This document shows, in pieces, positions 1 to 38,273 of a stretch of DNA of 61,593 bases. The stretch's first letter is position 1, and every line of letters starts with the position of its first letter. Source of the DNA: a virus; the IMG/VR virus record IMGVR_UViG_3300032288_002010, positions 1 to 61,593 of that record; one strand, given 5' to 3'. The position numbers were made by a program, and so were the translations under genes. The notes beneath the pieces are model-generated. The model was not told the DNA's origin. It saw only the letters and a list, made by a program, of their open reading frames with translations, and searched no databases.

Positions 1-1520
1 CATTACCACCCGCATCACCGGCTGTACCACTTGTACCAGTAGATCCAGTGCTACCGCTTGTACCGCTTGTGCCACTTACACCGCTTGTTTTACTTAAACC
101 ACTTTGACCATTACCACCCGCATCACCAGCAGTGCCGGTTGTACCAGTAGATCCGGTGCTACCACTTGTACCGCTTGTTCCACTTAATTTACTTGCACCA
201 TTTGCACCATTTACACCATCAGTGCCGCTTGTGCCGGTGCTACCACTTGTACCGCTTGTACCACTTGTACCACTCAGTTTGCTTTCACCACTACCACCAT
301 TAGCACCTGTATCACCAGCAGTGCCGGTTGTACCACTTGATCCAGAACTACCACTTGTGCCGCTTGTTCCACTTAATTTACTTGCACCATTTGCACCATC
401 AACGCCATCAGTGCCGCTTGTGCCAGTGCTACCACTTGTACCGCTTGTACCACTTGTACCACTTAATCCGCTTGTACCACTTAAACCATTGGATCCACTT
501 GTACCAACTGTACCACTTGTGCCTGTAGTGCCAGATGTGCCACTTGTACCACTGGTTCCATTTATACCACTTGTTGCGCTTAAACCATTACCTCCAACAC
601 CGGCGCTACCACTTGTGCCTGTGCTACCGCTGCTACCACTTGTGCCACTTGTGCCATTTATACCACTCGTTTTGCTCAATCCACCACCACCATCTGTACC
701 ATCGGTGCCAGATGTACCGCTACTACCGCTACTACCGCTACTACCACTTGTGCCGCTTGTACCACTCAATTTGCTTTCACCACTACCACCATTAGCACCT
801 GTATCACCGGCAGTGCCAGTTGTACCACTTGATCCAGAGCTACCACTTGTACCACTTGTACCACTCAATTTGCTTGCACCATTGGCGCCATCGACACCAT
901 CGGTACCAGATGTTCCACTTGAACCGGTGCTACCGCTTGTACCACTTGTACCATTTAAACCGCTTGTACCGTTTAATCCAGATGTTCCGTCAAAACCACT
1001 TGTACCGCTTGTTCCGCTTGTACCACTAAACCCATTAGTACCACTTAGTCCGCTTGTTCCACTTAACCCACTAGATCCACTTGTACCTTCGGTACCACTT
1101 GTACCTGTTGTACCGCTTGATCCACTAGTTCCAGATGTGCCTGATGTACCACTTAAGTTTGCAGATCCATTATCCCCAGATAACCCACTTGTACCGGCTG
1201 ATCCAGTAGTACCACTTGTACCACTGACACCACTTGTTGCATTTAGACCATCTCGACCAAAAGTACCACTGGAACCAGATGAACCACTTGTTCCGTTTGT
1301 TCCAGAAGTACCACTAAAACCAGAAGGACCGCCTTCGCCAGCGGTACCGGATGATCCACTTGTACCGCTGGTGCCACTGGTGCCACTTGTACCATGTGTA
1401 CCACCTTTACCACTTGTTCCACTTGTACCAGACACACCGGATGTATTGGAATTACCAGAACTTCCGCTTGTACCCATTGATCCTGTAGTTCCAGATGCAT
1501 TTGCTCCGGTTGCAACAGCA
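1..1520 (-). repeat. Gly-X-Y coding repeats with longer internal duplications
   Basis: A 9-base unit encoding Gly-Thr-Ser-like triplets is iterated throughout. Higher-order duplications are visible: bases 1-70 match 109-178 (offset 108, 36 residues), 186-275 match 375-464 (offset 189, 63 residues), and 275-360 match 767-852 (offset 492, 164 residues) with only a few substitutions. All offsets are multiples of 9, so the Gly-X-Y register is kept. This is the pattern expected from unequal recombination within a fibre gene. Confidence 0.9.
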
Positions 1521-1981
1521 TAACCGCAGGCTGAGTATGAAAAGGTAATAGTTGCTGTATTGTTGTCTACTAACAATATATTTTCTGGTATAATTTGATT
1601 ATAATTTTCATCATATACCTGTACAATAACAAATTGTGTATCTAAATTATGAGTAAATGTCCAAGTTGTGGATGGAGATGCACATGAAAATGCTTGATGT
1701 ACTACGTTACTATAACTACTTAAACCACTTGTTCCCGCAGTACCTCCTGTGCCTGTTGATCCACCTCCACCACCGCTAGTAGACAAATTATTTATCGCAG
1801 CGGCTTGTATATTGGATTGATTTTGAAGATTTACCAGATCATCAGTAACAACGACAAATGCCTTAGAGAGTTTTTTAGCACTTTCATCCTTGATACGTGC
1901 TCTTTCTTCAACATACTCCTTAAGTCTCAAATTGATGAGTTTTACATCAATTTTATTATTTGTGGGTAAATTATAAGGCAT
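1..1981 (-). CDS. Collagen-like tail fibre/adhesin (3' end outside window)
   Basis: The minus frame is open from an ATG at 1981 to the window edge (660 codons, no stop seen), so the protein is incomplete at its C-terminus. Residues 1-65 form a helical head beginning MPYNLPTNNK, followed by a Gly-rich linker. Residues about 90-155 look like a small beta domain with aromatic residues. From about residue 160 onward the chain is Gly-X-Y repeats, mostly GTS, GSS and GTT, with blocks such as GANGASKLSG. Collagen-like repeats trimerise into rigid stalks in phage fibres. It follows the gp13-gp14-gp15 genes with a 50-base gap. Thr and Ser fill most Y positions and Pro is almost absent, so stability may come from Thr glycosylation or threonine packing; that part is inference. 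Function at family level is fairly sure, receptor specificity unknown. Confidence 0.85.
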   Translation of the reverse strand, partial: MPYNLPTNNKIDVKLINLRLKEYVEERARIKDESAKKLSKAFVVVTDDLVNLQNQSNIQAAAINNLSTSGGGGGSTGTGGTAGTSGLSSYSNVVHQAFSCASPSTTWTFTHNLDTQFVIVQVYDENYNQIIPENILLVDNNTATITFSYSACGYAVATGANASGTTGSMGTSGSSGNSNTSGVSGTSGTSGKGGTHGTSGTSGTSGTSGSSGTAGEGGPSGFSGTSGTNGTSGSSGSSGTFGRDGLNATSGVSGTSGTTGSAGTSGLSGDNGSANLSGTSGTSGTSGSSGTTGTSGTEGTSGSSGLSGTSGLSGTNGFSGTSGTSGTSGFDGTSGLNGTSGLNGTSGTSGSTGSSGTSGTDGVDGANGASKLSGTSGTSGSSGSSGTTGTAGDTGANGGSGESKLSGTSGTSGSSGSSGSSGTSGTDGTDGGGGLSKTSGINGTSGTSGSSGSTGTSGSAGVGGNGLSATSGINGTSGTSGTSGTTGTSGTVGTSGSNGLSGTSGLSGTSGTSGTSGSTGTSGTDGVDGANGASKLSGTSGTSGSSGSSGTTGTAGDTGANGGSGESKLSGTSGTSGTSGSTGTSGTDGVNGANGASKLSGTSGTSGSTGSTGTTGTAGDAGGNGQSGLSKTSGVSGTSGTSGSTGSTGTSGTAGDAGGN

Positions 1982-2031
1982 ACTATCTTAAATAAATATA
2001 AAACATATTATACAATGAGTTATTGTATAAA

Positions 2032-3435: not shown

Positions 3436-3438
3436 AAA

Positions 3439-4011
3439 TTATGTCTGTCTTTGTACAATATTTAACTTACTTAATCTTGTATAATGAGTATTAACAATTA
3501 AACTCCAAGATTTGTCAGGATGACCACCTAAAAATTGTTCTTGTACAACGTTGTCCATTTCATAAAATCTTTCATTATAAAGAACAACATCGCCAATTTC
3601 TGGAAAAAAGTTTGTTATGATGCAGTCACGTTCTCTAAATCTAAAAACTACGTTTTGATTACGGTCTGGTCCAAACTTGCTAGCATTTTCACCTGTCAGA
3701 TCTTCTCGTTCTGCAAAACATGTTAGATTTATAGCTGGATAAAACATCTTACCTTGAGAAGAAACTGATTCACCATATATATTGACGGTAGTTTCATTCA
3801 AAGCAATCTTGAATACTTGAACAACCACTTCAGATATATCACCATATAATTCGGCATTTACTGACCCAAGCAAATTCATATCTCTTCTTGAGAAGAATCT
3901 GCCTGGTAAATAATTATTATTATAAACGCCTACGTCCTTACGTCCATCCGTCCAATATTGTGGAAACGCAGGATTTTGCTTAGGATATTGTGGTGTGGTT
4001 GGTGCTGCCAT
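3439..4011 (-). CDS. gp14-like neck protein
   Basis: Probable T4 gp14 homologue, part of the neck that closes the filled head and receives the tail. It sits between gp13-like and gp15-like genes with 3-base gaps on both sides, the conserved T4 order. At 190 aa it is a little shorter than T4 gp14 (256 aa). Features resembling the family are an early strand region NAELYGDISEVVVQVFKI, a central EDLTGENASKFG segment, and the late GDVVLYNERFYEMDNV strand followed by a Gly-Gly turn, comparable to the GDLIYF...FEI part of gp14. No signal peptide or membrane segment. Context carries much of the call. Confidence 0.68.
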   Translation of the reverse strand: MAAPTTPQYPKQNPAFPQYWTDGRKDVGVYNNNYLPGRFFSRRDMNLLGSVNAELYGDISEVVVQVFKIALNETTVNIYGESVSSQGKMFYPAINLTCFAEREDLTGENASKFGPDRNQNVVFRFRERDCIITNFFPEIGDVVLYNERFYEMDNVVQEQFLGGHPDKSWSLIVNTHYTRLSKLNIVQRQT

Positions 4012-4014
4012 ATA

Positions 4015-5232
4015 TTATCCAATATAAATGTGTAGTGGAACTTTAGACAACATCTTGTTCATCGCTTCTGCTTCTTTGTCTTTGTTTTCCAATTGATTTA
4101 CTCTTAAGCTCTTTTCCAACATCTCTCTTAATTTATCAAGAAGTGTACCCATTTCCTCCTTGGCTTCGGAACGTAACTCTGCACCATCTAGTGTTACTTC
4201 TCCACCTGGAATTGGAACAGTACTATATTTTTGAAGAATACGACCCAAAGTTTCTTTACATAATGCCAAGAAATACTTCTTGATCCATTGTTTGCCAGGT
4301 TGATTTATCTTACAATATTTGCAATATTCGTATGGAATATCACTTGGATCACTCACATATTCATAACGTGATCCACTATAGAAATTAGTAATATTCTTAT
4401 CTTTTTCTAGATAGTAATCAATCCACAACTTGAAATTATTTGTTGGTATTGGAAATATTCTTAGTTTATTATTACCAACGATTTCAAAACTATATGCACT
4501 TTTACGAACCATGTCGTTGAATTCGATAGCTTGTATGCGTTCCAAATCTTCAAAGATAGGAGTCATCAAGAATTGTGTAGCTGGACTATATGCGCTAAAT
4601 CCCAATTCAGACAAAATGTTACCATAACTCATACCAGTCATGCTAAATGGATCATAAATACGAGCAACGGCTGGTGGTCTATTATGAAATACTCTACGAA
4701 CTTCTATACGTGAACCAGTTAGATGTTCAATTTCATCGCCTATCAGTTTATTCAAGTCATATAATTGTTCACTGCCACTCATGCTTGCAGACACATAAAT
4801 AAAGTTTCTCTTGAGTGGAGTTTCACCATTAACCAAGGCTTCACTACCATATTGTTTACTCAATTGTACAACGAATGGTAGACCTGTGCTTTTAACACCC
4901 AATCCAGTTAAATTTGGATATTGACTTTGGGGTAAACCAGTCAAATCAACCATGTTGTTAACGATATTAAATTCATTAACTACACGATTATATTCTAGTA
5001 CAGACTCTTCAAAGCATGCATAAAAGTTGACATCAATCATTTCTATGTCAACAATTGGATAACCTAGACGTTTTGCAGCCCACATTGCACTGCTACTACA
5101 ATCATTTTCAAAGGTACTTTCGCCAGTACTACAATTTTCGCCTAAGTAGTAACCAAATGGAACGCTTCCAGAAGTAACTGCGCTACCACTTCCTGGCCAT
5201 CTTACTCTATCTTGATCTAAATTAGCACTCAT
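4015..5232 (-). CDS. gp13-like neck protein
   Basis: Probable T4 gp13 homologue, the neck protein that binds the portal vertex and starts the head-completion ring. The recognisable part is AAKRLGYPIVDIEMIDVNF (residues about 52-70), followed by a helix with EESVLEYNRVVNEF, matching the GYP-DIE-then-acidic-helix pattern of this family. The C-terminal third is helical and charged, ending in LEKSLRVNQLENKDKEAEAM. It is 405 aa against 309 in T4. It begins the gp13-14-15 unit. A TATTTATA box lies 4 bases before the ATG and no Shine-Dalgarno sequence is visible. Confidence 0.8.
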   Translation of the reverse strand: MSANLDQDRVRWPGSGSAVTSGSVPFGYYLGENCSTGESTFENDCSSSAMWAAKRLGYPIVDIEMIDVNFYACFEESVLEYNRVVNEFNIVNNMVDLTGLPQSQYPNLTGLGVKSTGLPFVVQLSKQYGSEALVNGETPLKRNFIYVSASMSGSEQLYDLNKLIGDEIEHLTGSRIEVRRVFHNRPPAVARIYDPFSMTGMSYGNILSELGFSAYSPATQFLMTPIFEDLERIQAIEFNDMVRKSAYSFEIVGNNKLRIFPIPTNNFKLWIDYYLEKDKNITNFYSGSRYEYVSDPSDIPYEYCKYCKINQPGKQWIKKYFLALCKETLGRILQKYSTVPIPGGEVTLDGAELRSEAKEEMGTLLDKLREMLEKSLRVNQLENKDKEAEAMNKMLSKVPLHIYIG

Positions 5233-24754: not shown

Positions 24755-27700
24755 TTAGATATTGAAACTTGCACCAGTTGGTAGAATGTTGAAGTCAAGG
24801 ATAATGAATTCAGCGGTTCTAGTTGGTTGGATGAAGATTTGACCATATAGAATATTTCTATCAATTAGGTCAGGAGTATTGTTTTGTTCATCCATCTTAA
24901 CTTGGTAAGCATAGATACCATTACGTTGTTGTACAGATTCCAAGTAAGGATTTACGATACTCAAGAATCTATTACGTGTAGCAGCTACGTTTTGTTCGAA
25001 TACCAAGTAGTTGCTTGAACTTGCGACGAACTTCTTCAAGTTGATCAACAAGCGACGAACATTGATACGATCCAAGGCACTTGGAGCAATTTGTAGAGTC
25101 TTTTGACCCCATACACAAATACCTTGGCCAGGGAATGCTGCGATTGGATTTACACGACCTTCATACAAGGTGTCACGTTCGTTATGAGTCAAACGATCAA
25201 GTACTTGTACTGCGGTTGGAATACCACCACGATTTAGACCGGCTGGTGCGTACCATTCGGCAGCAGCGTTGTCGTTAGCAGCGTAAACTGCTGGCAATAC
25301 TACTGAAGGTGGAACGCTAATAACCTTGTTGGTATTAGTATCTAGGATCTTAACCCAAGGATAATAAGTACATACATAGTTACTATCAATTGTTGCTACG
25401 CTGTTGATAGCTGCATCAATTAATCCAACGGTTTGGTTACTTGCTGGGAACACGATGTTATCCATGATGTAGAAACAATCGCCACGAGCTTCGCACATAT
25501 CGATAGTAATCTCGGTTACGTAGCTGTGTTGTTCACGGAAGATACCAGGCAACACAATCAAGTTGATATCAAATTCATCAGCGTTACCTAAAGCAGCAAT
25601 AGCTTGTTTATAAGCAATGCTACCTGGGCTGTTGATATTTGTACAATCTAGACCTTGTGTATTACCGGCGGTAATATCACTACCGATGTTGATTGGAATT
25701 GCTGGCCATTGACCATCAAATCCACCTTGGAAACCTACCAAGAACTTACGCAACTTGACGTAGGTTGATTCATTTACTGGATCATAGTTACTTGGAATAC
25801 TACCACTTAGGGTTGGTGACAATAGTGATCCTGTTCCATTTGCATAGAACTTAGCACTATCGGTACCCCATGTCTTGTCTTCCAAGTCGAAGTCAATATT
25901 TACACCATTTACACTACTTGGTAGTGGTTTGAAGTATTGATATGTATCATTATATACACCCACGTTAGCAGATGATGTAGGATACAATGAGGTCAATTCA
26001 TCATCAGCTTGTGGTACTGCGTTAAACACTGTACCAGAAGCATATTTACCAGGAGCCAATGACCAGATACTTGCTTTGCTGTATCTTACTGGAGGAATAA
26101 TATCAGCCAAGGTACCAGCAACTGGAGTTGAATATGATTCAAATCCATATGGAACAGATACTTCTGGATATAAACCATCAGCCATTTCAATTCTGATAAA
26201 TTGACTCAAGTTTGCGTATGTACCAAACTCAATAATTTTACCAGCAAATGTAATGTAAGCATATCTATCACCAATTCTACGAGCAATGAAGTTAGCAGAT
26301 GCAGGATCTAGATTCAAGTTTTGATAAATTTCCAAATATTTTGGACGCTTATCAGTATCACTATAAGCACGTACTGCCAATGTGAAACTACCCCAATCAC
26401 TACCTGGGACTGTACCAGACAACTTAACGTTGCTGATTTCAATCTTATACTTCTTATTACTCAAAGTACCATCGCTCAATGTGTGTACTTTAAACAATTG
26501 GAATTTGGTTGGAGTGGAAGCACCAGATGCACTACCTTTGAATGGAGCAATCTTTTGAGAATAGATCCATGGAGTATAAGCATTTGTGATACTGAATTGG
26601 CTATCACCAGCATTCAAGTTTGTGCTGTATTGATCGACGAACTTTAGAGGTTCACCAACTGCAAATCCTGTTTCAGGAGCAGTCTTAGCAGACAATCTCC
26701 AACCGCCGCCTTCTGCACTTGGACGAGTCTTTTCTGCTACGAATCTTTGAATACTATCATTGAACAACAAGTAGTTGTAGGCAGCTTCTACTTTTTGTCC
26801 AGCAACTTGTTTAGCAGGATTACCAGCGGTAGGATCCATACCAAATACGTTTGCAATATAATTATTATCACTTTCATTTAGGGTGAAGTCATAGTAACCA
26901 TATGTTCCCGAACTTGTGCTACCATCATTATTTGCGAAGTTATACTTCAAAATTAGTTGATAAGCATTTTCGTTTGGATTGATTAATCCCTTATATGGGA
27001 ATACTGAACTTGTCAATTGACTCAAGGTTGATGTGTCAAATCCAAATACTTCATAGCTACTATTGAATTGGGTTGAACCATTTTGAGTATTATTCAAAAC
27101 AGCCAATACCATCTTGGTTCTAGCAGATGTGTTTGGATTACATGGATCTCCACCTGAATTATCTTGACTTGTGAATGTACCATTGAAATCACCATAAGCA
27201 CCACCAATTAGACCCAAGAATTGTAGTGAAGAACCACAACTGGTTGAACTTCTAATAGATTTTACACTTGCGCTATATACTGATAAGATACCATTTACAT
27301 CAAATGTAGTTGTATCGTAATCCAAGGAAATCTTGGCACTTGAAGTCATTGATGCTGAGAAGTAAGCAACCGTTTCAGAACTTTCATTGAAAGCTGTAGA
27401 AACCTTAACTTCTGGACTTACGTTTTGAGATTGTACACTGGAACTTAGATAGTAATAACCAGCAAATAATCCAGATGTTGGAGTTACTCCTGTGATCTTT
27501 CTATACAAATATGTGTTAGCACCAGAACTATTTGTTGTGCTTACTGTTCCAATATTTACTTGTTTTCCAGCATACAATACTGAACCACTTAGTGATCCGC
27601 CTGTACCATTGTACCCAGATGGATAGTTACTTGTAGCGGCCTTTGGAGCAAACTTACCGTTAACTGTACCATTTAGTCTCAAACGAGATGTATCATATCT

Positions 27701-28696
27701 ATAAACAAATGCTGCAGTTGATTTTGAACTGCTTATACTTGCATTACTAAAATCAAGAGTATTGTTTGAGGCATATTTACCCAATACCAAACCATAAGTT
27801 ACATCATTACCACTTAGAGTATAAGATGCGGTCAAATAGTTATAATATGGTAGTGAACTTGCCAAATATGATGATGAATAAGTAACTGAATATCTTGTTG
27901 ATCCGATAGAAGCGGAAACTACACCCGCGATTAAAGATCTATCATAATCAAAATTTGCCAACGTATAATCACTAGAACCACCTGGTGGTTGAACCTTGCT
28001 GCCTTGTTGTACTACAGATGCACTAAAGATGTAACTATTTCTAGTGGTTGCGATCTTAAACAACTTACCTTTACTACCAGAAGCAGCTAGTGATGCGGAT
28101 AGTGTAGTACTATTTGTTGCGGTAGGCCATCCAATAGATACTAGGAATTGTGCAATTTCTGTATTTGTAGCTTTGGTGACGTTTACAGATGAAGAAATTG
28201 TTCCAGTAGTACCTGCTATACCACGAATTCCCGTCACGCTCGATGCGATTGTTGAAGAACTATATTCAAGAATGATGTTTGATGTATAGGAATCACTATC
28301 CAAATACATGAATGATGCAGTGGTCAAAGCACCCAAGTCGCTATTTCTGTTCCAGTAACCTGGTTCAGCGTATACAACTAATGGATTCTTTTGCCAGTAT
28401 CCGGTTAGACCGCCGATACGAACGACGGTTACTACACCTTGTTGAATTAAATATTCTTTGGCAGTGTATGGACCATAATATACCCCGTCAGCTACGCCGA
28501 AACGTTGTTCGAGCATTGCTACTTCGGTCATTCTTGCTGGGAAGAATGCTGGTCCATCTGAAAATGGTGCTACGATGGCACCTCCGATATTGGCTACGCC
28601 TTGGGCTAGCCCTGACAAGTCATTTTCTCTGGTAAATACACCAGGACTTACTATATTTTGTGTTGGTGAAAATCTTCCACCTTCTTGTATTGGCAT
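24755..28696 (-). CDS. Tail sheath protein (gp18-like), very large
   Basis: 1313 aa, about twice T4 gp18 (659 aa). The N-terminus has the sheath signature NIVSPGVFTRENDLSGLAQG, APFSDGPAFFPARMTEVAML, and GVVTVVRIGGLTGYW. The C-terminal domain is also typical: ICVWGQKTLQIAPSALDRIN, RRLLINLKKFVASSSNYLVF, then IFIQPTRTAEFIILDF. Between them (about residues 130-1000) is a long Ser/Thr/Tyr-rich, beta-strand-rich insertion that should sit on the outside of the tail, since inserts in sheath proteins usually face outward. Good Shine-Dalgarno (GAAAGGAA), a TATTTATA box and a terminator make it a single-gene unit, suited to high expression. No gp19 tube gene follows it. Confidence 0.92.
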   Translation of the reverse strand: MPIQEGGRFSPTQNIVSPGVFTRENDLSGLAQGVANIGGAIVAPFSDGPAFFPARMTEVAMLEQRFGVADGVYYGPYTAKEYLIQQGVVTVVRIGGLTGYWQKNPLVVYAEPGYWNRNSDLGALTTASFMYLDSDSYTSNIILEYSSSTIASSVTGIRGIAGTTGTISSSVNVTKATNTEIAQFLVSIGWPTATNSTTLSASLAASGSKGKLFKIATTRNSYIFSASVVQQGSKVQPPGGSSDYTLANFDYDRSLIAGVVSASIGSTRYSVTYSSSYLASSLPYYNYLTASYTLSGNDVTYGLVLGKYASNNTLDFSNASISSSKSTAAFVYRYDTSRLRLNGTVNGKFAPKAATSNYPSGYNGTGGSLSGSVLYAGKQVNIGTVSTTNSSGANTYLYRKITGVTPTSGLFAGYYYLSSSVQSQNVSPEVKVSTAFNESSETVAYFSASMTSSAKISLDYDTTTFDVNGILSVYSASVKSIRSSTSCGSSLQFLGLIGGAYGDFNGTFTSQDNSGGDPCNPNTSARTKMVLAVLNNTQNGSTQFNSSYEVFGFDTSTLSQLTSSVFPYKGLINPNENAYQLILKYNFANNDGSTSSGTYGYYDFTLNESDNNYIANVFGMDPTAGNPAKQVAGQKVEAAYNYLLFNDSIQRFVAEKTRPSAEGGGWRLSAKTAPETGFAVGEPLKFVDQYSTNLNAGDSQFSITNAYTPWIYSQKIAPFKGSASGASTPTKFQLFKVHTLSDGTLSNKKYKIEISNVKLSGTVPGSDWGSFTLAVRAYSDTDKRPKYLEIYQNLNLDPASANFIARRIGDRYAYITFAGKIIEFGTYANLSQFIRIEMADGLYPEVSVPYGFESYSTPVAGTLADIIPPVRYSKASIWSLAPGKYASGTVFNAVPQADDELTSLYPTSSANVGVYNDTYQYFKPLPSSVNGVNIDFDLEDKTWGTDSAKFYANGTGSLLSPTLSGSIPSNYDPVNESTYVKLRKFLVGFQGGFDGQWPAIPINIGSDITAGNTQGLDCTNINSPGSIAYKQAIAALGNADEFDINLIVLPGIFREQHSYVTEITIDMCEARGDCFYIMDNIVFPASNQTVGLIDAAINSVATIDSNYVCTYYPWVKILDTNTNKVISVPPSVVLPAVYAANDNAAAEWYAPAGLNRGGIPTAVQVLDRLTHNERDTLYEGRVNPIAAFPGQGICVWGQKTLQIAPSALDRINVRRLLINLKKFVASSSNYLVFEQNVAATRNRFLSIVNPYLESVQQRNGIYAYQVKMDEQNNTPDLIDRNILYGQIFIQPTRTAEFIILDFNILPTGASFNI

Positions 28697-28783: not shown

Positions 28784-29311
28784 TTATAATGTGCCTATAA
28801 ATTTTTTAATAATTTCTATAGAATCAACTCTGTTTAAATCAAATGACTCTAAGTTATATATGATATTATACTTTTCTCTGGAAATTTCAAAATTATCAAA
28901 CTCATCATTAAATTCTGTCATATTTATCTGATATTTGAAATTAGTACCCCGAGTTTGATTATATAAATCTATATAAGATCCCCAAATTCTAGAATCTTCT
29001 AAACTAGAAGTTTTTAAATTAAACATGAAGTTATAATCTTTTATATTAAATTCATATTCATCTATTAAACTCACACCATTTTCCAAACTGAACGCGTAGA
29101 GTTTAATATAATCAAATTGTAAGGATTTAATATTTGTTCGTAAATACCAATGTCCTATCTCAGGAGTTTCTGTTGAATAAAACTCATGTTCTTTGCTAGA
29201 AATTACATAATGTAGAGTATGATTAAAATATCTGTCTGGTATGTTAGCAAATGTCAATTTAATAAACGACTCCGTATATTTTACATTAAAAAAATTATTT
29301 TTTGATCTCAT
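28784..29311 (-). CDS. Unknown protein ending the glycosylation operon
   Basis: 175 aa, rich in Phe, Tyr, Asn and Glu, with no recognised family. The first 100 residues look like a beta sandwich (SFIKLTFANIPDRYF, HWYLRTNIKSLQFDYIKLY); the rest is mixed with a final helix. The ATG overlaps the stop of the carbamoyltransferase gene by 4 bases, making it the last gene of the RuvC-primase-nuclease-glycosyltransferase operon. A partner or acceptor-binding protein of the sugar-modifying enzymes is possible from context only. Confidence 0.5.
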   Translation of the reverse strand: MRSKNNFFNVKYTESFIKLTFANIPDRYFNHTLHYVISSKEHEFYSTETPEIGHWYLRTNIKSLQFDYIKLYAFSLENGVSLIDEYEFNIKDYNFMFNLKTSSLEDSRIWGSYIDLYNQTRGTNFKYQINMTEFNDEFDNFEISREKYNIIYNLESFDLNRVDSIEIIKKFIGTL

Positions 29312-30951
29312 TGTAATTTATAAATTTTGTTGTTTATGATTAATAAATCAATAGTACCCTCAGATAGATGTGATAACGCATCATTTGGAGAATTAATTAT
29401 TGGTTCACCATGACCATTGAAACTAGTGTTCATTAACACAGGTATATTTGTTTTTTCATTAAATTTACTTAATATCTTATGAAACAAAGAGTGTCGATCC
29501 TTATTAACAACTTGTGGACGGGCTGTATTATCATGAAAGTTTATAACCGCAGGTATCTTTTTAGCCCATTCTTCACGAACTGTATAACACAACGTCATAA
29601 ATTCAGCGGCATTTTTAGATTTATAAACATGACATATATTTTCGATATGTTCTTCCATAATAATAGGAGCAAAAGGCATTATTTCATCTCTCTTTAATCT
29701 TTTATTTATGTAAGCATGTGTTTCTAATCTAGTTGGTTCAACGACTATAGATCTAGATCCTAAAGCTCTAGGCCCATACTCAGTAGCTCCTTCAAAAATA
29801 CCAATAACTTTTCCATCAACAAGATAGTTTGCAACATTATCAAAGTTTAATTCTTCTTCTATAATGTTTTTTCTAAAATTTGTAGAAAAATTATCTAAGT
29901 CGTTCTGTATATCTACAGAAGAATGTTTTTTTCCAAAGAAAACATCTTTTATACGACGATTTGTAAACTCTCCCAGTTCAACTCCATATGCAATCGCAGA
30001 TCCTAATGATAATCCTTCATCACCCATCGCTGGATAAATCCATATATTTTTAAATGGAAGGTATTCATTAATTTTTTGATTTAACTTTACATTTGCAAAC
30101 ACTCCTCCAGCTAAACAAATGTTATCAAATGGACCATACTGATCATATAATGATTTAATATGAGTCAACAGAGTGTTTTCTGTTAAGTATTGTAGATTAT
30201 ATGCTAAATTTCTTTTTAAATTAATAGCTTCTTCTGGATTTAAATTCTGCAAAAGATTTTTAAATTTATTTTCAATTGTACATGAAGCTTTTATCATGTC
30301 ATTCTTTACAAAGAAATTTAATATATCATAAATTTTATGATCGAACTCTCCTTGTGCAGCAAGACCCATTATTTTACCCTCATCTTTTAAAGGAGTAAGA
30401 CCAAATATATAACACATCAAATACCACATGTTTGCGATACTTCCATGTTTTACTCGTTCACCTATTTCAACCAATTTACCATTTTTAACTATATATGATG
30501 CCGATTGATTATCATTGAGATTATTAAACCAGTTGTATCTTTGATAATTGGAAATATTTAATTCTGTCCAATTATCATCTCCTATGTCACCACCATCATA
30601 GGAGATGACCAACGTATTATCATTAAATCCGGATGTATAATAAGCACCACATGCGTGTGCGTAATGATGACCTATTAGTCTTATACTTTTATTTTTTAAT
30701 ATATTTACGATATCATCGTGTCTGTGGTGAATGGCAGGTTTTGCAATTGCAAATTTTACACTCGGATCTTTTATGTCAAAATCAAAATCTTTTTGAATTG
30801 CTGAAAAACTATGTGATGGAAACAAACCGCCAGCGTATGCTGATTTCACTCGCGAGAATCTCTCCTCTGTATAACAAGCTAATATTTGATTATTTTCAAT
30901 CAAAGAAAAACCTACATCATGTGCGCCGATATAACTTCCTACAATTTTCAT
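29308..30951 (-). CDS. O-carbamoyltransferase (NodU/TobZ family)
   Basis: 547 aa, full length for the family, which transfers a carbamoyl group from carbamoyl phosphate via carbamoyl-AMP to a hydroxyl, commonly on a sugar. N-terminal Kae1-like domain: SYIGAHDVGFSLIEN, LACYTEERFSRVK, LIGHHYAHACGAYY (metal-binding His residues) and VISYDGGDIGDDNW. C-terminal YrdC-like part: IGIFEGATEYGPRALGSRSI, EIMPFAPIIMEEH and VLMNTSFNGHGEPIINS. All key motifs are intact. It overlaps both neighbours by 4 bases. Next to two glycosyltransferases the likely acceptor is a glycan. A related phage enzyme that carbamoylates 5-hydroxymethylcytosine in DNA has been reported, so DNA is the alternative. Confidence 0.9.
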   Translation of the reverse strand: MKIVGSYIGAHDVGFSLIENNQILACYTEERFSRVKSAYAGGLFPSHSFSAIQKDFDFDIKDPSVKFAIAKPAIHHRHDDIVNILKNKSIRLIGHHYAHACGAYYTSGFNDNTLVISYDGGDIGDDNWTELNISNYQRYNWFNNLNDNQSASYIVKNGKLVEIGERVKHGSIANMWYLMCYIFGLTPLKDEGKIMGLAAQGEFDHKIYDILNFFVKNDMIKASCTIENKFKNLLQNLNPEEAINLKRNLAYNLQYLTENTLLTHIKSLYDQYGPFDNICLAGGVFANVKLNQKINEYLPFKNIWIYPAMGDEGLSLGSAIAYGVELGEFTNRRIKDVFFGKKHSSVDIQNDLDNFSTNFRKNIIEEELNFDNVANYLVDGKVIGIFEGATEYGPRALGSRSIVVEPTRLETHAYINKRLKRDEIMPFAPIIMEEHIENICHVYKSKNAAEFMTLCYTVREEWAKKIPAVINFHDNTARPQVVNKDRHSLFHKILSKFNEKTNIPVLMNTSFNGHGEPIINSPNDALSHLSEGTIDLLIINNKIYKLQ

Positions 30952-33089
30952 AAATTATGATCTTTTATCAGACTATCAATTTTTTCTATAACCATTTGCG
31001 GAGTAATTGATTTTGTACACTCAAACATTTCCTTTTTATCGGGTTTTGGGCACCACATCCAATTACCTCTGTCGAAATAATTATCATTCCAACATCCATT
31101 ACACACATTTTTATTTTGAACTCTATATGGAGTTTCAAATTCAGTATAGTCATGAGAAAATCCACTAATTAATGTTACTGGCTTTCCTATAGACCAAGCC
31201 AACCAAGATAATCCGGATGGAAGTCCTATAAAAAATGAACTATGATAGATTTGATTAATACGATCTTCTAATGAATAATTTCCGGTTAAATCTAACGCAT
31301 TAGAAGGGATTATATTCATATTATTATTATTTCCAAAAGAACTATTTTTATCTATACAAACTACATCGAATCCTTTTGATTTTAAATAATCAACTATAAT
31401 ATTCCAACCACCTTTGTAATTCCAATATTTTGCTTGTGCAGTACTTTGCGTTGCAATAGTAACATATGGCTTTGTGAATTTAGATGGTGATAATCTATAA
31501 TCTAAAGATGGCCTTTCAGGAACATAATTTAAACCCAAATAATCACTCGCTACTTTTTGCAATGGTTGTTTTCTAATATCATTCTTACATCGCATCGCAT
31601 TAATAGAACTATTATCTACATACCATCCAGGCTTATATGTTGCAAATAAATCGGGGACAGATTCATCAAAATTTATAAATTTAATATCCTTATATTTATT
31701 TTGAAACAATTCACGAAGTCTTATTTTTAAGAATAAATTACATTTGTGTTTTTTTCTAAATTGTTCTGCTATTGGCATCCAACATAACTGATCACCCAAC
31801 GCATTAGTTTCATATTCTATTAGTACATTCTTATCTTGCAAGTCCAAGTCATAATTTAACACGATTTCATTTGTTAAATTACTTTTAACTATTAAATTGT
31901 ATGGTATAAAATACGTATAATCACATCTACCCCACCAACCATCTTGCAGATTGGTATCATACAAAACTTCATCCGTTAAGGAGTTTTTAAATTTTACGTT
32001 AAACGTTTCATCTTTATTAGTACACTTTGTAATTTGTACAAATGCATTATCATTAAATGAATATTCAACATGTACTTTATTGTTAACTTTATTTGTATTT
32101 TTATTTAAGTTTGAATAAATATCTATAAATTTTTTCGCAAACAATTCATTTGTATACTCGTTATATAACTCAATCAGTTGATCAACTCTATTGGTATACG
32201 AATTATTATTTGCAGCTTTTAATGATTCGGTATGATAATATTCATAGTTTGAAATAACTTTATTGATTGCATCTTTTATTTGTTTTGTATCTCTATCAAC
32301 GACGATCATTCCATCATAACGTTTATTTTCAAACGTTCCTACAACTGGTAGTCCACAAGCCATAGCTTCCAGTAATGTTAAATTAGGATGACCTGCTTCT
32401 AACTCAGATGCGTGAATGAATATGTCATGGTTGTTGTATAACTCTATTAAACCATTTTCATCAAGATCAAATATCTTAGTTAGATGTTCATAATTGTTCA
32501 ATGATGGATCTAAAGTTTCAAAAAACTTTTTATTGTTACTTGGTCCAGCAATTGTAATAGGTAGATTCAACTCTTTAGCAGCTTGTATTGCATACGTGAA
32601 TCCCTTTCTATCATAAGATTGATTGTTTGCATAACCATTATTGGCAACACATAGTAATTTATATCCTTCTCTATTATAATTTTTATACTTAAATACATCG
32701 GTATTTACAGCATGTGAAAAATAACGTAACTTTTTACTAGCAAAATAATCAACCAAATATTTTGCTGGACATGTTGATATTATACTATTTTCTATAGCCT
32801 TTAGATTTTCTTTAAAAACATCTGAATTTTTTCCATATAGGAATGCGTGATGATCGTGTAATGTAAAAATATATGGTATACCACGTTCATAACATTCATT
32901 GGCTAAGTTTGCAACGTGAACATGTACGATTGTATTGTCATTATATTTAATATCATTTAAATATTTAATCTCACATTGTAATCCCTTAGAATTTAATTGT
33001 TGATGATAATCCCAAATAATTTTTTCAATAGCCCCCCAACCATTTGGTGGAATTGGAAGCAAACCTAAATGTACTTGTACTACTTTCAT
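30948..33089 (-). CDS. GT4 glycosyltransferase fused to TibC/BAHT-like heptosyltransferase domain
   Basis: 713 aa, two enzymes in one. Residues 1-325: GT-B GT4 glycosyltransferase with VQVHLGLLPIPPNGWGAIEK, FTLHDHHAFL, VANNGYANNQSYDRKGF and the C-terminal nucleotide-sugar site HPNLTLLEAMACGLPVVG. Residues about 335-713 follow the bacterial autotransporter heptosyltransferase (BAHT) layout. It has a strand module ending LQDGWWGRCDYTYF, IEYETNALGDQLCWMPIAEQ, QPLQKVASDYLGLNY, FIGLPSGLSWLAWSIGKPV, and a Cys finger C663-x2-C666-x13-C680-x10-C691 like the iron-binding finger of TibC. TibC-type enzymes O-heptosylate Ser of surface adhesins. Both halves look intact. The sugar used is unknown. It overlaps the carbamoyltransferase by 4 bases. 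Confidence 0.82.
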   Translation of the reverse strand: MKVVQVHLGLLPIPPNGWGAIEKIIWDYHQQLNSKGLQCEIKYLNDIKYNDNTIVHVHVANLANECYERGIPYIFTLHDHHAFLYGKNSDVFKENLKAIENSIISTCPAKYLVDYFASKKLRYFSHAVNTDVFKYKNYNREGYKLLCVANNGYANNQSYDRKGFTYAIQAAKELNLPITIAGPSNNKKFFETLDPSLNNYEHLTKIFDLDENGLIELYNNHDIFIHASELEAGHPNLTLLEAMACGLPVVGTFENKRYDGMIVVDRDTKQIKDAINKVISNYEYYHTESLKAANNNSYTNRVDQLIELYNEYTNELFAKKFIDIYSNLNKNTNKVNNKVHVEYSFNDNAFVQITKCTNKDETFNVKFKNSLTDEVLYDTNLQDGWWGRCDYTYFIPYNLIVKSNLTNEIVLNYDLDLQDKNVLIEYETNALGDQLCWMPIAEQFRKKHKCNLFLKIRLRELFQNKYKDIKFINFDESVPDLFATYKPGWYVDNSSINAMRCKNDIRKQPLQKVASDYLGLNYVPERPSLDYRLSPSKFTKPYVTIATQSTAQAKYWNYKGGWNIIVDYLKSKGFDVVCIDKNSSFGNNNNMNIIPSNALDLTGNYSLEDRINQIYHSSFFIGLPSGLSWLAWSIGKPVTLISGFSHDYTEFETPYRVQNKNVCNGCWNDNYFDRGNWMWCPKPDKKEMFECTKSITPQMVIEKIDSLIKDHNL

Positions 33090-33091
33090 AA

Positions 33092-35083
33092 TTATTTAGC
33101 TATAAAATGTCCGTTGTTTTTTAATTCTTCGATTGACGAAAATTCAGTTAAAACTTCTTTTATGATACGAGCTTTGTCTTTGTCAAAAATGGTGTTTAAT
33201 ACTTTATACTTGTTATTTTCACGAAAATCAACCTCTATGTGCCACCAACCACCATTTATTATTTGTTTAATTTCTTTCTTAATCAAAATGTCATTTTCAT
33301 AAACACATATTTCATTTAGTTTATTGTCAATTTTATTATTAAAATTGCTCAAACATACAAATTTGTTTTGATTTGGAATAGGTAGAACAGTTAAATATTC
33401 ACACATAGAAAACATGTTAATTTCACTATTATTGAAAAAACTTTCTTCATTGTTTTTATAGTCAATGTATATATCTTTCTTTTTATGTATCAGTTTATTA
33501 TAATAAAATTGTTCAAGTCCATTTGATATGCCTGTTTCTTTTACAAATCTCTCATATGTGGTTGGAGTAAAGTACTCAAATAGTTCAAGATAGAAGTCTG
33601 TATTAATTGCATGAAATACCGTCTTTATAGTATCTCCCTCTAACGCTTTATCATAGAAGAAAAATCCTTTTTTTGTTTGCATGATATTTTTTATCATGTT
33701 TAATTGATTAAAATCTTTCTCAGATATAACAACGTCGTAATTAAACGCAAATACGTTTTTGTAACCAATCTTATTAGCAAAACCAATTCCATTATAATAA
33801 TTTAAAGCAACTCCTAATCCATGATATTTATCAGATCCACATGATGGTAGATAAACTTTTATATCATGATGTTGATTTACATATGTCCAATTTTTATAAA
33901 AATTATGAATCAATAATGGATTGTTTTTGTCGTAAACATAATAATCGGCTGCAGATTGTAATCTAGTACTAACTGGATAATGTGAGGATAAAATGACTTT
34001 ACATCCAAATTTTTTAATTTGTTCTATGGATTTTAAAGTTGTTTCTTCTATAATATCGTAATTTGGATGTGTGGAGATTACTGCTACAAACTCTTTTTCA
34101 TCAAAACGATCTATAGATTTATTTCCATACACAACATTACGAATTAAATTTACATTATTCTCGAAATTTGTTTCATTTAAATATGATACATTATCATAGC
34201 AGTTGTATCTATCTAGATATACAGGAAGATTATAAAATAGACTTGGTATATTATAAGCTATAGCTTCTTTGATAACGATAGGTGCTGTTTCTTTATCGTT
34301 AGCATGTCCACGACTGGTAAACAAAAATAAGTCCATACAACTATAAAAATTATGTACGTCTTTTCTCTCACCCCAGATTTTAACATTTTTTGGCAAATCT
34401 ATCAATAATGGTTCCCAATAGAATTTGAAATTATCTGCCATATTACCAACGCAATGAAATTGAATATTTTCACACTCCATCGATTTAGCATATTCAATGA
34501 ATTCTTTTTGATTTTTTCTTGGAGTAAATAATCCGACATGTAATACGTGTTTTTTCTTAGGATCAAGACCTAATTTTTTTAATCCATCTTCTCTTTTTTG
34601 ACGAGTTCTTACTTCAATTGGATACTCAATGACTTTTGATTTAACAGGAATAGATTTTACATTATTTTCTTGAAATTTGCTCACAAATGTAAAATGGTCT
34701 GGATACACCATCTTGGTAGATGGATTAAAACTACTATCATGTGATGTTTCAACTATAAAATATGATCTAGACACATCATATATTTTTGAAGAAATAGAAA
34801 AATCCATGAAATATTCCGGCATCTCTTCTAATGCAACTATATCCGGTTTTACTTTTTTAATTATAGTAATTAATTCTGATTTATCATTGCCTAAAACATA
34901 AAATCTATTCTTACATAGATTTTGAATCTGTTCTCTTTGTACTATCAACACACCACCTGTGTGATCATTATATTCTACACAATGTATTTCGTAATAATTA
35001 TTTAATGCTTGGATTTTTTTTAACAAAAATTGAGGCAAACCTCCTGTTGATAAGTGTGGAGATACAAATAACAATTTTTTCAT
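33092..35083 (-). CDS. Two-domain glycosyltransferase (GT4 plus unclassified C-terminal part)
   Basis: 663 aa. Residues 1-320 are a GT4 enzyme: LLFVSPHLSTGGLPQFLLKK, HVLHVGLFTPRKNQKEFIEY, IQFHCVGNMADN, LFLFTSRGHANDKETAP and IVIKEAIAYNIPSLFYN, with the Glu of the ExxxxxxE-like region. Residues 330-560 look like a second, GT-A-like sugar-transferase or glycan-binding fold (AVISTHPNYDIIEETTLKSI, INTDFYLELFEYFTP). The last 90 residues hold a strand module with GGWWHIEVDF, resembling GGWW/GWWG in the neighbouring BAHT-type protein. It lies 2 bases before the GT4-BAHT gene. Likely builds or extends the glycan. Donor and acceptor unknown. Confidence 0.75.
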   Translation of the reverse strand: MKKLLFVSPHLSTGGLPQFLLKKIQALNNYYEIHCVEYNDHTGGVLIVQREQIQNLCKNRFYVLGNDKSELITIIKKVKPDIVALEEMPEYFMDFSISSKIYDVSRSYFIVETSHDSSFNPSTKMVYPDHFTFVSKFQENNVKSIPVKSKVIEYPIEVRTRQKREDGLKKLGLDPKKKHVLHVGLFTPRKNQKEFIEYAKSMECENIQFHCVGNMADNFKFYWEPLLIDLPKNVKIWGERKDVHNFYSCMDLFLFTSRGHANDKETAPIVIKEAIAYNIPSLFYNLPVYLDRYNCYDNVSYLNETNFENNVNLIRNVVYGNKSIDRFDEKEFVAVISTHPNYDIIEETTLKSIEQIKKFGCKVILSSHYPVSTRLQSAADYYVYDKNNPLLIHNFYKNWTYVNQHHDIKVYLPSCGSDKYHGLGVALNYYNGIGFANKIGYKNVFAFNYDVVISEKDFNQLNMIKNIMQTKKGFFFYDKALEGDTIKTVFHAINTDFYLELFEYFTPTTYERFVKETGISNGLEQFYYNKLIHKKKDIYIDYKNNEESFFNNSEINMFSMCEYLTVLPIPNQNKFVCLSNFNNKIDNKLNEICVYENDILIKKEIKQIINGGWWHIEVDFRENNKYKVLNTIFDKDKARIIKEVLTEFSSIEELKNNGHFIAK

Positions 35084-35084
35084 A

Positions 35085-38000
35085 TTACTTATATATTACT
35101 TTGCTAAATCCGTTGTCTTTTTTTATTTCGATCTGGTTATCAACCATGTCTCTCATTTGATCCAAGTGGCTAATAATCCAGATAAAATCAAATTGATGTT
35201 TTAAGTAATTAAATAAAGCACCCATCTGACCAAGATGATCACTGTCAGCACATCCAAATCCTTCATCGATACAGATAATATTGGGTCTTGGTAAATTACT
35301 GATATTAATCAATGCAACTCTGATGGCTAATCCACTAATAAACTTTTCCATACCACTAGCCATTTCCAATGGCCATTGTCTGTCATCATAAATGATGTTG
35401 GTCATAATGTTCTTACCATCGGTTTGCAAAGATATAGTAAATTCTACCAACTGATGGAGAATATTATTCACTTCCTTTTCAATTTCTGGAAGAGTCTTGG
35501 TTATGATTTCATATGGAATACCATCTCGACTAATAATATTGGTATATAGCTTGTAAGCCTCATAAGAATCTTCAAGTTCTTTCACCTTATTTAGTTGATC
35601 TGTAGTATTCTTATATTGAAGTTCTAACTTTCCCTTCTCAGTTGATGCAGAAAACAATTTATTGTTGATGTTTTTAATATCTGATTCTACGTTCTTAATT
35701 AGAGTCTTAACCTCAGTAATTTCTTTCAACAATTTAGAGTTGTTCTCAATGATATCTTTGTTCTTGTAAAATATATCAATATTGTCAACAACAGACTTCA
35801 AGTTATTTTGACGAGTAATTAATACATTTTCATCACGTAATACCGCATTGGATAGAACTTCCTTTGATTTTTCCAACTTAACTTTTTCAGAATCAATTCG
35901 TTGACATTCTTTATATTTAAATTCTATGTCACCAAAAGACTCCAATTTAACCTTGATAGAATTATATTCATCCATCAACGCTTTACCTTTATTTTTGTCT
36001 AGTTCAATTTCCTCTTTGGTTTTAATTGCGTCTTTTACGAAGACGTTATTTACGCAATAACTACAATTAGGATCGTACTTGTGATCTTCTAGTTTTTTAA
36101 GTTTATCAATTTTATTTTTGACTACAACTTTCAACTTTTCTAATTCAGAAGACTTCTTAGCCTCTTCATCTTTACAAGATCTATATTGTTCATATTCAAC
36201 TTCGATATTTTCACAAGATTTCAAAGATGCAGATAGTTGACTCAGTTGAGTATCAATCTCAATAATCTTATTCTTTTTATCACTAATATCAGTTTGAATA
36301 GAATCAATCTTAGTTTTCAAATCAGATTGTTCTTTTTCCAAAGATGTAATGTCAAAATCAAACGTTGTAGTTTTGACAATATCATTGGATAATTCTAGCA
36401 GTTTATTATTCTGTAATTCCTTATCTGATTCATATCTTTTAATCTCATTATTAAATTCTGAGATTTTAATATTATTTGAATCAATACTACCAGACACATT
36501 TTGCAATTGTTCTACTAATTGTTCTTTGCTGATATTTTTAAGAAGGGTATTAGTCTCTTTAAACTTGTCATTTGCGATTGTGTACAATTGATCAAAGATG
36601 TTTAATCCCATAAATTGACACAATAGATCCTTACGTTCAGTTTGACCTAAATCAATAAATGATCCAGTCTTGCTATTTTGAATGCTAAGAACCGTTAGAA
36701 TAAAATCTTCGTATGTACCAACATAATCACGAATGATATCATTGGTATTACGACGAGCTTCTCCATTCAATGGTACTTCATTTCCGCCTTCCTTCTTATA
36801 GAATTTAACTTCTACCTTAACATTACCTTTTTTATCAGCTTTACCTTCACGTTCGATAAAATAGTCTACACCATTTACTTCAAAGTTAAACTTGCAACGA
36901 AAACTCATTTTCTGAGTATTCAATACGTGAGATGCTTTATATCCTTTACTGAACTTATCAAATACGCAAAAGGCCAGTGCATCCATAATACTAGATTTAC
37001 CACTCGCATTTGGTGCAAACAATCCAATAGCACCTTTTAACTTTGTAAAGTCAATATAATTACCCTCTCCATAACTAAACATATTATCAAACTCAAAAGT
37101 CTTTGGTTTCCAACGAATGTTCTTTGGAGCCTTATCTTTTGGAATACTATTGTTTATAGATTTATTTAAATCTTTAACCTTTTCAATGAGATTGCTTGTA
37201 ACTTTCTTTTGTACAAGGTTATCTTCAATGAGTTTATTTTGGTAATCAACATCGAATATGTTATGTACATCAAATATCTGACCATTCTTTAGGGTCATAT
37301 CAATCGATTGTTCATCAACTCTGATAAAGGTACTCTCTATGATTTCACATTTAGTTACCAAATCATTCATCACCTCTTTTACTTGTGATGGAATAGTTTC
37401 ATAACACATAGTTCTAACACGAGCCTTCTTTGGAATATCAGAAACATCGGTTACTAACTTACCTTTATTGATTTCGATAGTATAAAATCCATAGTCATTC
37501 AATAATTCATAATGTTTGAATACTCTGCGCTTTAAATCCCAAAGCAAAAATCCATGACCTTTTAAATCTTCACCATGATTTTGTTGAACCATAGATCCAG
37601 CATAAACAATAATAGGTTTTTGATTGATATCATCAAACTCTTGTAAGATCTGGTGCTTATGAATATCACCCAACATGGCCATATGATGACCGTCAAATAG
37701 TTCGTTGGTGATTGATCTACTACTAACTGTGTATCCAACATCAGTCACGGCATTATTTACTGGTCCATGAAATAAAGCGATGTGGTGATCAGTTTCATTT
37801 TTATACCTTGTAGGAATGGTATTATAGTTTGTATACTTATCTGGATCATCAAATACACTGAAATTATTAAACAAGATGTTCTCATAACGAAATACATCAG
37901 AATCCTTCAGATAAAATAGATTTGGATGATTTAAAGCATCAACAATTGGAGTTAAACAATCCAATCTAGATTTATTTGCTAATGTAGCATCATGATTACC

Positions 38001-38273
38001 TGCGGTAAGAATAGTTGGAATTCTATCTGCACAATTCTTAAGAAAGTCACTACCAATTTTTACACACTCAGGACTAAGATCCGACTTATTATGAAATACG
38101 TCTCCGGCGATAACTAATACAGCATTAGTTACCTTTTTTACTTTGTCAAGAGAATCGTATAATTTTTTAAAAATCGAAGTATATTCATCGTGTCGTTTAG
38201 TCAAACGAATATGAATATCTGCGATATGAACGACATTATCGATCTTCTGATTTGTGTTTTTTAATACTATCAT
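35085..38273 (-). CDS. Single-chain Mre11-Rad50 (gp47-gp46) recombination nuclease
   Basis: 1062 aa containing both subunits that T4 makes from two genes. Residues 1-360 are the Mre11/SbcD/gp47 phosphoesterase: HIADIHIR (Asp19, His21), IAGDVFHNKSD (Asp58, His61), TAGNHDA (Asn93, His94), ALFHGP and LGDIHKHQ. Residues 385-1062 are the Rad50/SbcC/gp46 ATPase: Walker A FAPNASGKSS (420-428), a Q-loop region VLSIQNSKTGSF, long coiled coils, a zinc hook CSYC at about 738-741, signature MASGMEKFISGLA, Walker B NIICIDEGFGCAD and switch IISHLDQ. All catalytic motifs are intact and no stop interrupts them. It processes DNA ends for recombination-dependent replication. The start overlaps the primase stop by 4 bases. 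Confidence 0.93.
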   Translation of the reverse strand: MIVLKNTNQKIDNVVHIADIHIRLTKRHDEYTSIFKKLYDSLDKVKKVTNAVLVIAGDVFHNKSDLSPECVKIGSDFLKNCADRIPTILTAGNHDATLANKSRLDCLTPIVDALNHPNLFYLKDSDVFRYENILFNNFSVFDDPDKYTNYNTIPTRYKNETDHHIALFHGPVNNAVTDVGYTVSSRSITNELFDGHHMAMLGDIHKHQILQEFDDINQKPIIVYAGSMVQQNHGEDLKGHGFLLWDLKRRVFKHYELLNDYGFYTIEINKGKLVTDVSDIPKKARVRTMCYETIPSQVKEVMNDLVTKCEIIESTFIRVDEQSIDMTLKNGQIFDVHNIFDVDYQNKLIEDNLVQKKVTSNLIEKVKDLNKSINNSIPKDKAPKNIRWKPKTFEFDNMFSYGEGNYIDFTKLKGAIGLFAPNASGKSSIMDALAFCVFDKFSKGYKASHVLNTQKMSFRCKFNFEVNGVDYFIEREGKADKKGNVKVEVKFYKKEGGNEVPLNGEARRNTNDIIRDYVGTYEDFILTVLSIQNSKTGSFIDLGQTERKDLLCQFMGLNIFDQLYTIANDKFKETNTLLKNISKEQLVEQLQNVSGSIDSNNIKISEFNNEIKRYESDKELQNNKLLELSNDIVKTTTFDFDITSLEKEQSDLKTKIDSIQTDISDKKNKIIEIDTQLSQLSASLKSCENIEVEYEQYRSCKDEEAKKSSELEKLKVVVKNKIDKLKKLEDHKYDPNCSYCVNNVFVKDAIKTKEEIELDKNKGKALMDEYNSIKVKLESFGDIEFKYKECQRIDSEKVKLEKSKEVLSNAVLRDENVLITRQNNLKSVVDNIDIFYKNKDIIENNSKLLKEITEVKTLIKNVESDIKNINNKLFSASTEKGKLELQYKNTTDQLNKVKELEDSYEAYKLYTNIISRDGIPYEIITKTLPEIEKEVNNILHQLVEFTISLQTDGKNIMTNIIYDDRQWPLEMASGMEKFISGLAIRVALINISNLPRPNIICIDEGFGCADSDHLGQMGALFNYLKHQFDFIWIISHLDQMRDMVDNQIEIKKDNGFSKVIYK

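Follow-up and report, generated by a model that had tools for sequence, protein, structure and literature searches.

Known systems and the phage cassette

TibC and AAH, the autotransporter heptosyltransferases of the BAHT family (TIGR04414; PDB entries 4RAP and 4RB4), share one domain order, namely a β-barrel, a transferase domain and an iron finger. Enzymes of this kind are not known outside the glycosylation of bacterial adhesins. The catalytic residue of TibC is Asp110, the donor is bound by Thr226, Lys230, Arg286 and Trp305, selectivity depends on Pro300 and four cysteines make up the iron finger, while a hydrophobic thumb tip (Phe265/Val266) holds the dodecamer together (PMC4358343). Here, we describe a BAHT enzyme that is encoded by a virus. 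It is found in a 61.6-kb virus record (IMG/VR record IMGVR_UViG_3300032288_002010, positions 1 to 61,593; hereafter the window), where it is fused to a GT4 glycosyltransferase domain and is encoded in a four-gene cassette with a second glycosyltransferase of 663 amino acids (aa), an O-carbamoyltransferase and a 175-aa protein. From the sequence analyses below, the cassette is probably a phage-encoded cytoplasmic system for O-glycosylation and glycan decoration that acts on the phage's own tail fibre, a collagen-like protein rich in Gly-Ser/Thr-Ser/Thr repeats [(GTS)n].

The decoration of a Gly-X-Y repeat protein with glycan by the virus or spore that carries it has parallels in Mimivirus collagen glycosylation (L230) and in the bacterial collagen-like protein BclA. 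L230 acts on hydroxylysine, whereas the window system has a BAHT enzyme and Ser/Thr at the X and Y positions. BclA is reportedly glycosylated by enzymes that are unrelated to BAHT. The carbamoyltransferase has the full-length two-domain architecture of the NodU/TobZ/CmcH-type O-carbamoyltransferases, of which TobZ and GdmN are structurally solved relatives and of which phage homologues are already known (phrog_1601, in cyanophages and Pelagibacter phages). It differs from these in being coupled to a BAHT cassette and to the 175-aa protein, and is approximately 24–31% identical to the homologues from cultured phages among the matches listed. Neither a BAHT from a phage nor the glycosylation of a collagen-like phage fibre had been described in the literature searched, which mostly lay outside subscription papers.

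The BAHT half of the fusion protein

Residues 338–706 of the 713-aa fusion score 329.3 bits against TIGR04414 (331.9 bits in a second run), exceeding the curated cut-off of 200 by 129 bits, and phmmer aligns residues 340–705 with nearly the whole length of TibC (4rap; E = 1.9e-70). Functional residues from the TibC structure paper (PMC4358343) were transferred to the window protein through the alignment. All are kept: the catalytic aspartate is D433, the donor residues are T550, K554, R610 and W629, and the selectivity residue is P624. The preliminary description of this DNA, made from the sequence alone, had recognized a GT4 domain fused to a TibC-like domain with a four-cysteine finger (C663, C666, C680 and C691); both points hold, and the cysteines align with Cys339, Cys342, Cys358 and Cys370 of TibC. 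The equivalents of the TibC catalytic, donor and cysteine residues are invariant in 19 phage fusions, the Pro300 equivalent being the exception. In a wider alignment the Arg286 equivalent is kept in ten of 15 phage rows and the iron finger in 13 of 15. The BAHT half is very likely a protein O-glycosyltransferase, and the combination of Arg610 with Pro624, which is equivalent to the D,D-heptose selectivity residue of TibC, favours ADP-D,D-heptose as the putative donor in the window. All four cysteines are lost in the BAHT homologues of two viral contigs (L059, positions 250–1371, and L060, positions 3480–4577).

The thumb tip, which lies in a β-hairpin, is Asn-Asn in the window protein. Because the hydrophobic tip is lost, the quaternary structure may differ from that of TibC. 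The tip is also variable in many other bacterial BAHTs and is no strict mark of the family; the substitution would therefore lower the case for a TibC-like dodecamer and leave the family assignment untouched.

A separate BAHT branch associated with repeat proteins

A tree of BAHT domains places the phage proteins and 12 bacterial proteins on one side of a branch with an SH-like approximate likelihood-ratio test (SH-aLRT) support of 100 and all 65 classical members, including TibC, on the other. The tree comes from a quick, non-bootstrapped search, and the inner order of its phage part is unsure owing to long branches. A scan of bacterial genomes with the BAHT half as the query returned 379 stretches (the full fusion as the query gave no match), and the gene context was first examined at 80 of these loci. 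Exactly three of the 80 hold a (GTS)n-type gene; all three belong to the phage-type branch and in each the repeat gene adjoins the BAHT gene.

The prediction was then set that repeat-protein neighbours would be present for close homologues from Methylococcales and further gammaproteobacteria and absent for distant homologues, and was tested. Genes for exported (Gly-Ser/Thr-Ser/Thr)n proteins lie beside ten of the 12 bacterial branch members and none of 64 classical loci (Fisher test, p = 7e-11; this value and those below overstate independence, because the records are related, and serve only as a guide). Within one order, a repeat-gene neighbour is present at eight of ten close homologues versus none of six distant ones (p = 0.007). 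The neighbouring proteins start with signal-peptide-like sequences. These bacterial data are the best evidence from which we infer that the phage-type branch O-glycosylates (Gly-Ser/Thr-Ser/Thr)n chains. The loci of the methane-oxidizing Methylococcales with an exported (GTS)n protein beside the BAHT are L138, L121, L322, L324–L326, L328 and L329.

A candidate acceptor in the phage

The window fibre (positions 1–1981) contains 152 Gly-X-Y triplets, of which 55 are Gly-Thr-Ser, with a longest unbroken run of 31. Its 660 residues include 147 Ser and 115 Thr (40% Ser and Thr), and it also matches collagen-like adhesin models. Repeats were searched for in the DNA with a pattern that codes for Gly-[Ser/Thr]-[Ser/Thr] three times in a row; it has 40 matches in the fibre gene, and a reversed control pattern gave zero. 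By this measure, (GTS)n repeats occur in 16 of 23 BAHT-bearing phage records, compared with none of 17 T4-like relatives that lack a BAHT and that were mostly sampled independently by terminase (Fisher test, p = 6.7e-6, likewise a guide only). The association recurs in a distant 735-kb phage, in Microcystis phage Mel-JY01 and in the contig L126 (described below). The repeat gene adjoins the cassette in L024, L057 and LR756501 and lies near the BAHT gene in Mel-JY01. The preliminary description had named no particular acceptor and had not linked the cassette to the fibre gene at the far end of the window. The autotransporter habit of BAHT enzymes, which it had mentioned, does not point to the acceptor here: strand-loop-strand repeats (TIGR04415) were absent from the 20 phage records searched, with a positive E. 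coli control, and the branch is tied instead to Gly-Ser/Thr-Ser/Thr proteins. The acceptor is likely a phage protein, and the repeat data suggest that the (GTS)n fibre is probably the main one.

Apart from the relatedness of the records, several observations weigh against the fibre. In the window, approximately 27 kb separates its gene from the cassette, whose direct neighbour encodes a tail sheath that is likewise rich in Ser and Thr. No repeat was found in seven BAHT-bearing records, namely the 636-kb LR756504 and six contigs of 58–101 kb, the latter probably being fragments. The acceptors of TibC are β-helical passenger domains, from which a (GTS)n chain differs in shape. Finally, Arg286, which contacts the adenine, is replaced by Ile, Val or Met in most bacterial members of the phage-type branch, and the donor may therefore not be an ADP-sugar throughout the branch.

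The sheath itself, or another structural protein, could be the acceptor of a virion glycosylation instead. The 1313-aa sheath is gp18-like only in about its last third and has a long Ser/Thr-rich N-terminal extension; its Ser and Thr content is 19% overall and up to 36% in one 100-aa stretch, and its gene is the next one downstream of the cassette in the window and its close relatives. In the larger group of loci the cassette instead adjoins the terminase gene or unrelated genes, and (GTS)n genes are found as direct neighbours repeatedly, in separate lineages as well as in bacteria. We regard a virion acceptor other than the fibre as unlikely.

Targets other than the virion

A role at the host surface was considered, in which the enzymes alter the lipopolysaccharide, capsule or S-layer glycan of the host to block superinfection. 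The GT4, FkbM, DegT and hexapeptide transferases are of types commonly met in gene clusters for surface polysaccharides, but no flippase, polymerase or ligase family is present among the cassette genes scanned, BAHTs act on proteins and the cassette lies within the structural-gene region. This explanation is improbable.

DNA hypermodification is more doubtful still. The carbamoyltransferase and glycosyltransferases would here act on hydroxymethylated bases, as in the glucosylated hydroxymethylcytosine of T4 or in phages with 5-carbamoyloxymethylcytosine. The window is T4-like, and a phage carbamoyltransferase of the same superfamily carbamoylates 5-hydroxymethylcytosine (PMC8670742). However, DNA-modifying homologues pair with a hydroxymethylase, and the contigs in which GT4 genes flank a carbamoyltransferase were unmodified (PMC8670742). 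Thymidylate synthase/dCMP hydroxymethylase was absent from the window and from all T4-like records searched (several of which are fragments), including the complete 190-kb Mel-JY01, and was present only in two huge phages; a TET/JBP search, which was run without a positive control, gave no match. DNA modification was rejected as the principal explanation on these grounds. In addition, the DNA glucosyltransferases of T4 belong to other glycosyltransferase families than the window enzymes, and the BAHT enzymes as a family O-glycosylate proteins.

Glycosylation of a host protein is the least probable explanation, for while bacteria of the same BAHT branch have exported (GTS)n proteins, the phages of this group bring their own.

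Accompanying enzymes

The Glycos_transf_1 domain scores 55.6 and 47.1 bits in the two GT4 proteins, compared with a gathering score of 26.4. The AlphaFold model of the 663-aa protein has a pLDDT of 75, and its best Foldseek match is PimB′ (3oka; E = 1.6e-9). In the 663-type proteins the GT4 half is constant and the C-terminal half is swapped, being an α/β domain in the relatives of the window and an FkbM or other methyltransferase in others. The carbamoyltransferase is full length, in agreement with its first assignment to the NodU/TobZ type, and contains both Carbam_trans_N (113.8 versus 24 bits) and Carbam_trans_C (PF16861; 180 versus 27 bits). Its motifs HHYAHA (95), SYDGG (117) and GDEG (310) are metal-site-like and may correspond to the His/Asp metal site that TobZ has in its Kae1-like part.

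Profile searches matched the 175-aa protein to no family, and its gene occurs solely together with the carbamoyltransferase gene. Its low-confidence model (pLDDT 62) is a weakly FnIII-like β-sandwich. Foldseek paired the model with FnIII-like sandwiches, none of the matches being below E = 0.001 (TibC ranked 26th, with E = 0.02), and the protein was assigned to no fold family on this basis. The idea of a TibC-like β module common to all cassette proteins was also discarded: profile comparison supports it only for the N-terminus of FkbM and for 663-type proteins that are fused to FkbM (E of about 1e-8). The BAHT barrel barely exceeds the shuffled controls, and neither the 175-aa protein nor the C-terminus of the 663-aa protein is supported. 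Phage-encoded heptose synthesis was rejected as well, since only weak nucleotidyltransferase matches were obtained, in T4-like relatives and none in the window; a search for donor-synthesis genes in the window found none.

Spread and variability of the cassette

The enzyme is encoded at 64 further viral-contig loci, mostly as the full-length fusion with 48–88% identity, and in most of them a 663-type gene adjoins the fusion gene or sits in its cassette. This recurrence argues against the cassette reading frames being due to chance. Annotated phage records with a BAHT number only four: two versions of the 735-kb phage, the 636-kb phage and Mel-JY01. The 735-kb phage has the same GT4–BAHT fusion (39.5% identity), and the fusion is kept in LR756501; the BAHT of the 636-kb phage (LR756504) stands alone, and the 1227-aa protein of Mel-JY01 has GT4 and other domains fused to BAHT. 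In nearly all of the 80 bacterial loci the BAHT is a stand-alone protein of approximately 400 aa. The clear exception is L126, a 161-kb contig (NAT137) filed as Chloroflexi in which a GT2–GT4–BAHT gene lies beside homologues of gp32, gp59, tail-tube and baseplate-hub genes; it is a T4-like phage contig misbinned into a bacterial genome. As far as sampled, the GT4–BAHT fusion is therefore a phage feature.

The remaining enzymes vary. Only the closest clade of the window has the carbamoyltransferase and 175-aa genes within its cassettes, and two other records carry a carbamoyltransferase outside the cassette. In every close relative, an FkbM methyltransferase gene separates the gp46/47 gene from the 663-type gene; the window is without it and has a 1-nt junction at this point (35083–35087). 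Genes for DegT aminotransferases, hexapeptide transferases/acetyltransferases, GT2 enzymes or CmcI-like methyltransferases are found instead at other loci. The pattern is that of a core that stays constant while the decorating enzymes are exchanged. The gene set of the preliminary description is thus shared by other phages as regards the fusion and, mostly, the 663-type gene, and is confined to the closest clade as regards the other two. Its proposal of a carbamoylated O-glycan on phage proteins is retained in part: an O-glycan on a phage protein is most likely, whereas carbamoylation is not the core of the system, because its gene and the 175-aa gene are restricted to the cassettes of one clade and FkbM, aminotransferases, acetyltransferases or GT2 take their place elsewhere.

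Two further arrangements were observed. In L315 (positions 511–3472) a second, shorter BAHT gene directly follows the GT4–BAHT fusion, and L052 (positions 2–1546), from the same phage group, encodes a protein whose near-perfect repeat, NTGGVSVWNTYP, is of another type.

Genomic setting

The cassette consists of four minus-strand open reading frames (28784–35083), each with an ATG start. As first described, the genes are coupled, since they are separated by gaps of 1–2 nt or overlap by 4 nt. A fused gp46/gp47-like gene flanks the cassette on one side and the gp18-like sheath gene on the other; the former is a single 1062-aa frame (35085–38273) that joins the gp46- and gp47-like (SbcC/SbcD) subunits. 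PHROG searches identified homologues of gp18, gp17, gp20, gp23, gp46/47 and gp61. With its terminase, portal, major capsid, baseplate and primase homologues, the window is T4-like, as had been supposed. Its terminase is closest to that of Mel-JY01 (56%), followed by Flavobacterium immuto-group phages (52%). The terminase of Mel-JY01 (L067) is itself near a group that includes Flavobacterium phages and not cyanophages, and its host label may merit a check.

Table 1. Features of the cassette and of the candidate acceptors in the window.
Feature	Position	Strand	Basis and remarks
663-aa glycosyltransferase	33092..35083	-	PF00534 2.4e-12; GT4 domain residues 1–~320, α/β domain ~330–545, all-β C-terminal module ~560–650
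713-aa GT4–BAHT fusion	30948..33089	-	PF00534 6e-15, residues 160–286; TIGR04414; TibC 4rap
GT4 half of fusion, residues 1–~315	32145..33089	-	PF00534; invariant SELEAGHPNLTL motif
TibC-like N-terminal β-barrel module of BAHT half, residues ~338–430	31800..32078	-	TibC_1st weak; colinear with TibC from residue 23
BAHT catalytic domain	30963..31799	-	D433, T550, K554, R610, W629, P624 = TibC D110, T226, K230, R286, W305, P300
Iron-finger cysteines C663, C666, C680, C691	31017..31103	-	Aligned with TibC C339/342/358/370
547-aa O-carbamoyltransferase	29308..30951	-	PF16861 3.8e-53, PF02543 1.6e-32, phrog_1601 312 bits
175-aa protein, translationally coupled to carbamoyltransferase	28784..29311	-	N-terminal ~100 aa modelled as β-sandwich (low-confidence model)
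Collagen-like tail fibre, proposed acceptor	1..1981	-	PHROG tail fibre/collagen-like; C-terminus cut by contig edge
gp18-like tail sheath, alternative acceptor	24755..28696	-	phrog_23 3.5e-63, residues 974–1311

Proposed pathway and implications

In the pathway that we propose, the BAHT domain, with its conserved catalytic residues, would place the first sugar on Ser/Thr residues of the (Gly-Ser/Thr-Ser/Thr)n fibre, most likely using ADP-heptose or a related ADP-sugar of the host. The glycan would then be extended by the GT4 domain of the fusion together with the 663-aa glycosyltransferase, and the carbamoyltransferase, whose family is clear, would cap one of the glycan hydroxyls with a carbamoyl group; such carbamoylation is reasonably likely. 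In relatives the capping role would probably be taken by FkbM methyltransferases or by sugar aminotransferases/acetyltransferases. The predicted product is a fibre shaft under a variable, capped O-glycan, made before virion assembly. Such a coat could stiffen or solubilize the shaft, guard it against proteases or alter adsorption.

More broadly, we are inclined, by somewhat more than an even chance, towards a separate BAHT branch whose dedicated role is the O-glycosylation of (Gly-Ser/Thr-Ser/Thr)n collagen-like proteins and which is common to T4-like phages, to huge phages and to some Pseudomonadota, chiefly Methylococcales. The phages would have made of it a multi-domain assembly line for coating their own tail fibres, in which GT4 or GT2–GT4 is fused to BAHT and the methyl-, carbamoyl- and aminotransferases can be swapped. 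Our main finding is a candidate acceptor for the cassette, the (GTS)n tail fibre; the carbamoyl step is a local option. This gives a candidate role to the Gly-Thr-Ser repeats in the fibres of environmental phages. The simple bacterial pair of one transferase gene beside one repeat-protein gene offers a test system that does not need an uncultured phage. If the proposal is true, phages encode a multi-step, swappable protein-glycan pathway with a testable acceptor, and the scope of the BAHT family would grow from autotransporter virulence factors to a general sugar-coating of low-complexity repeat proteins.

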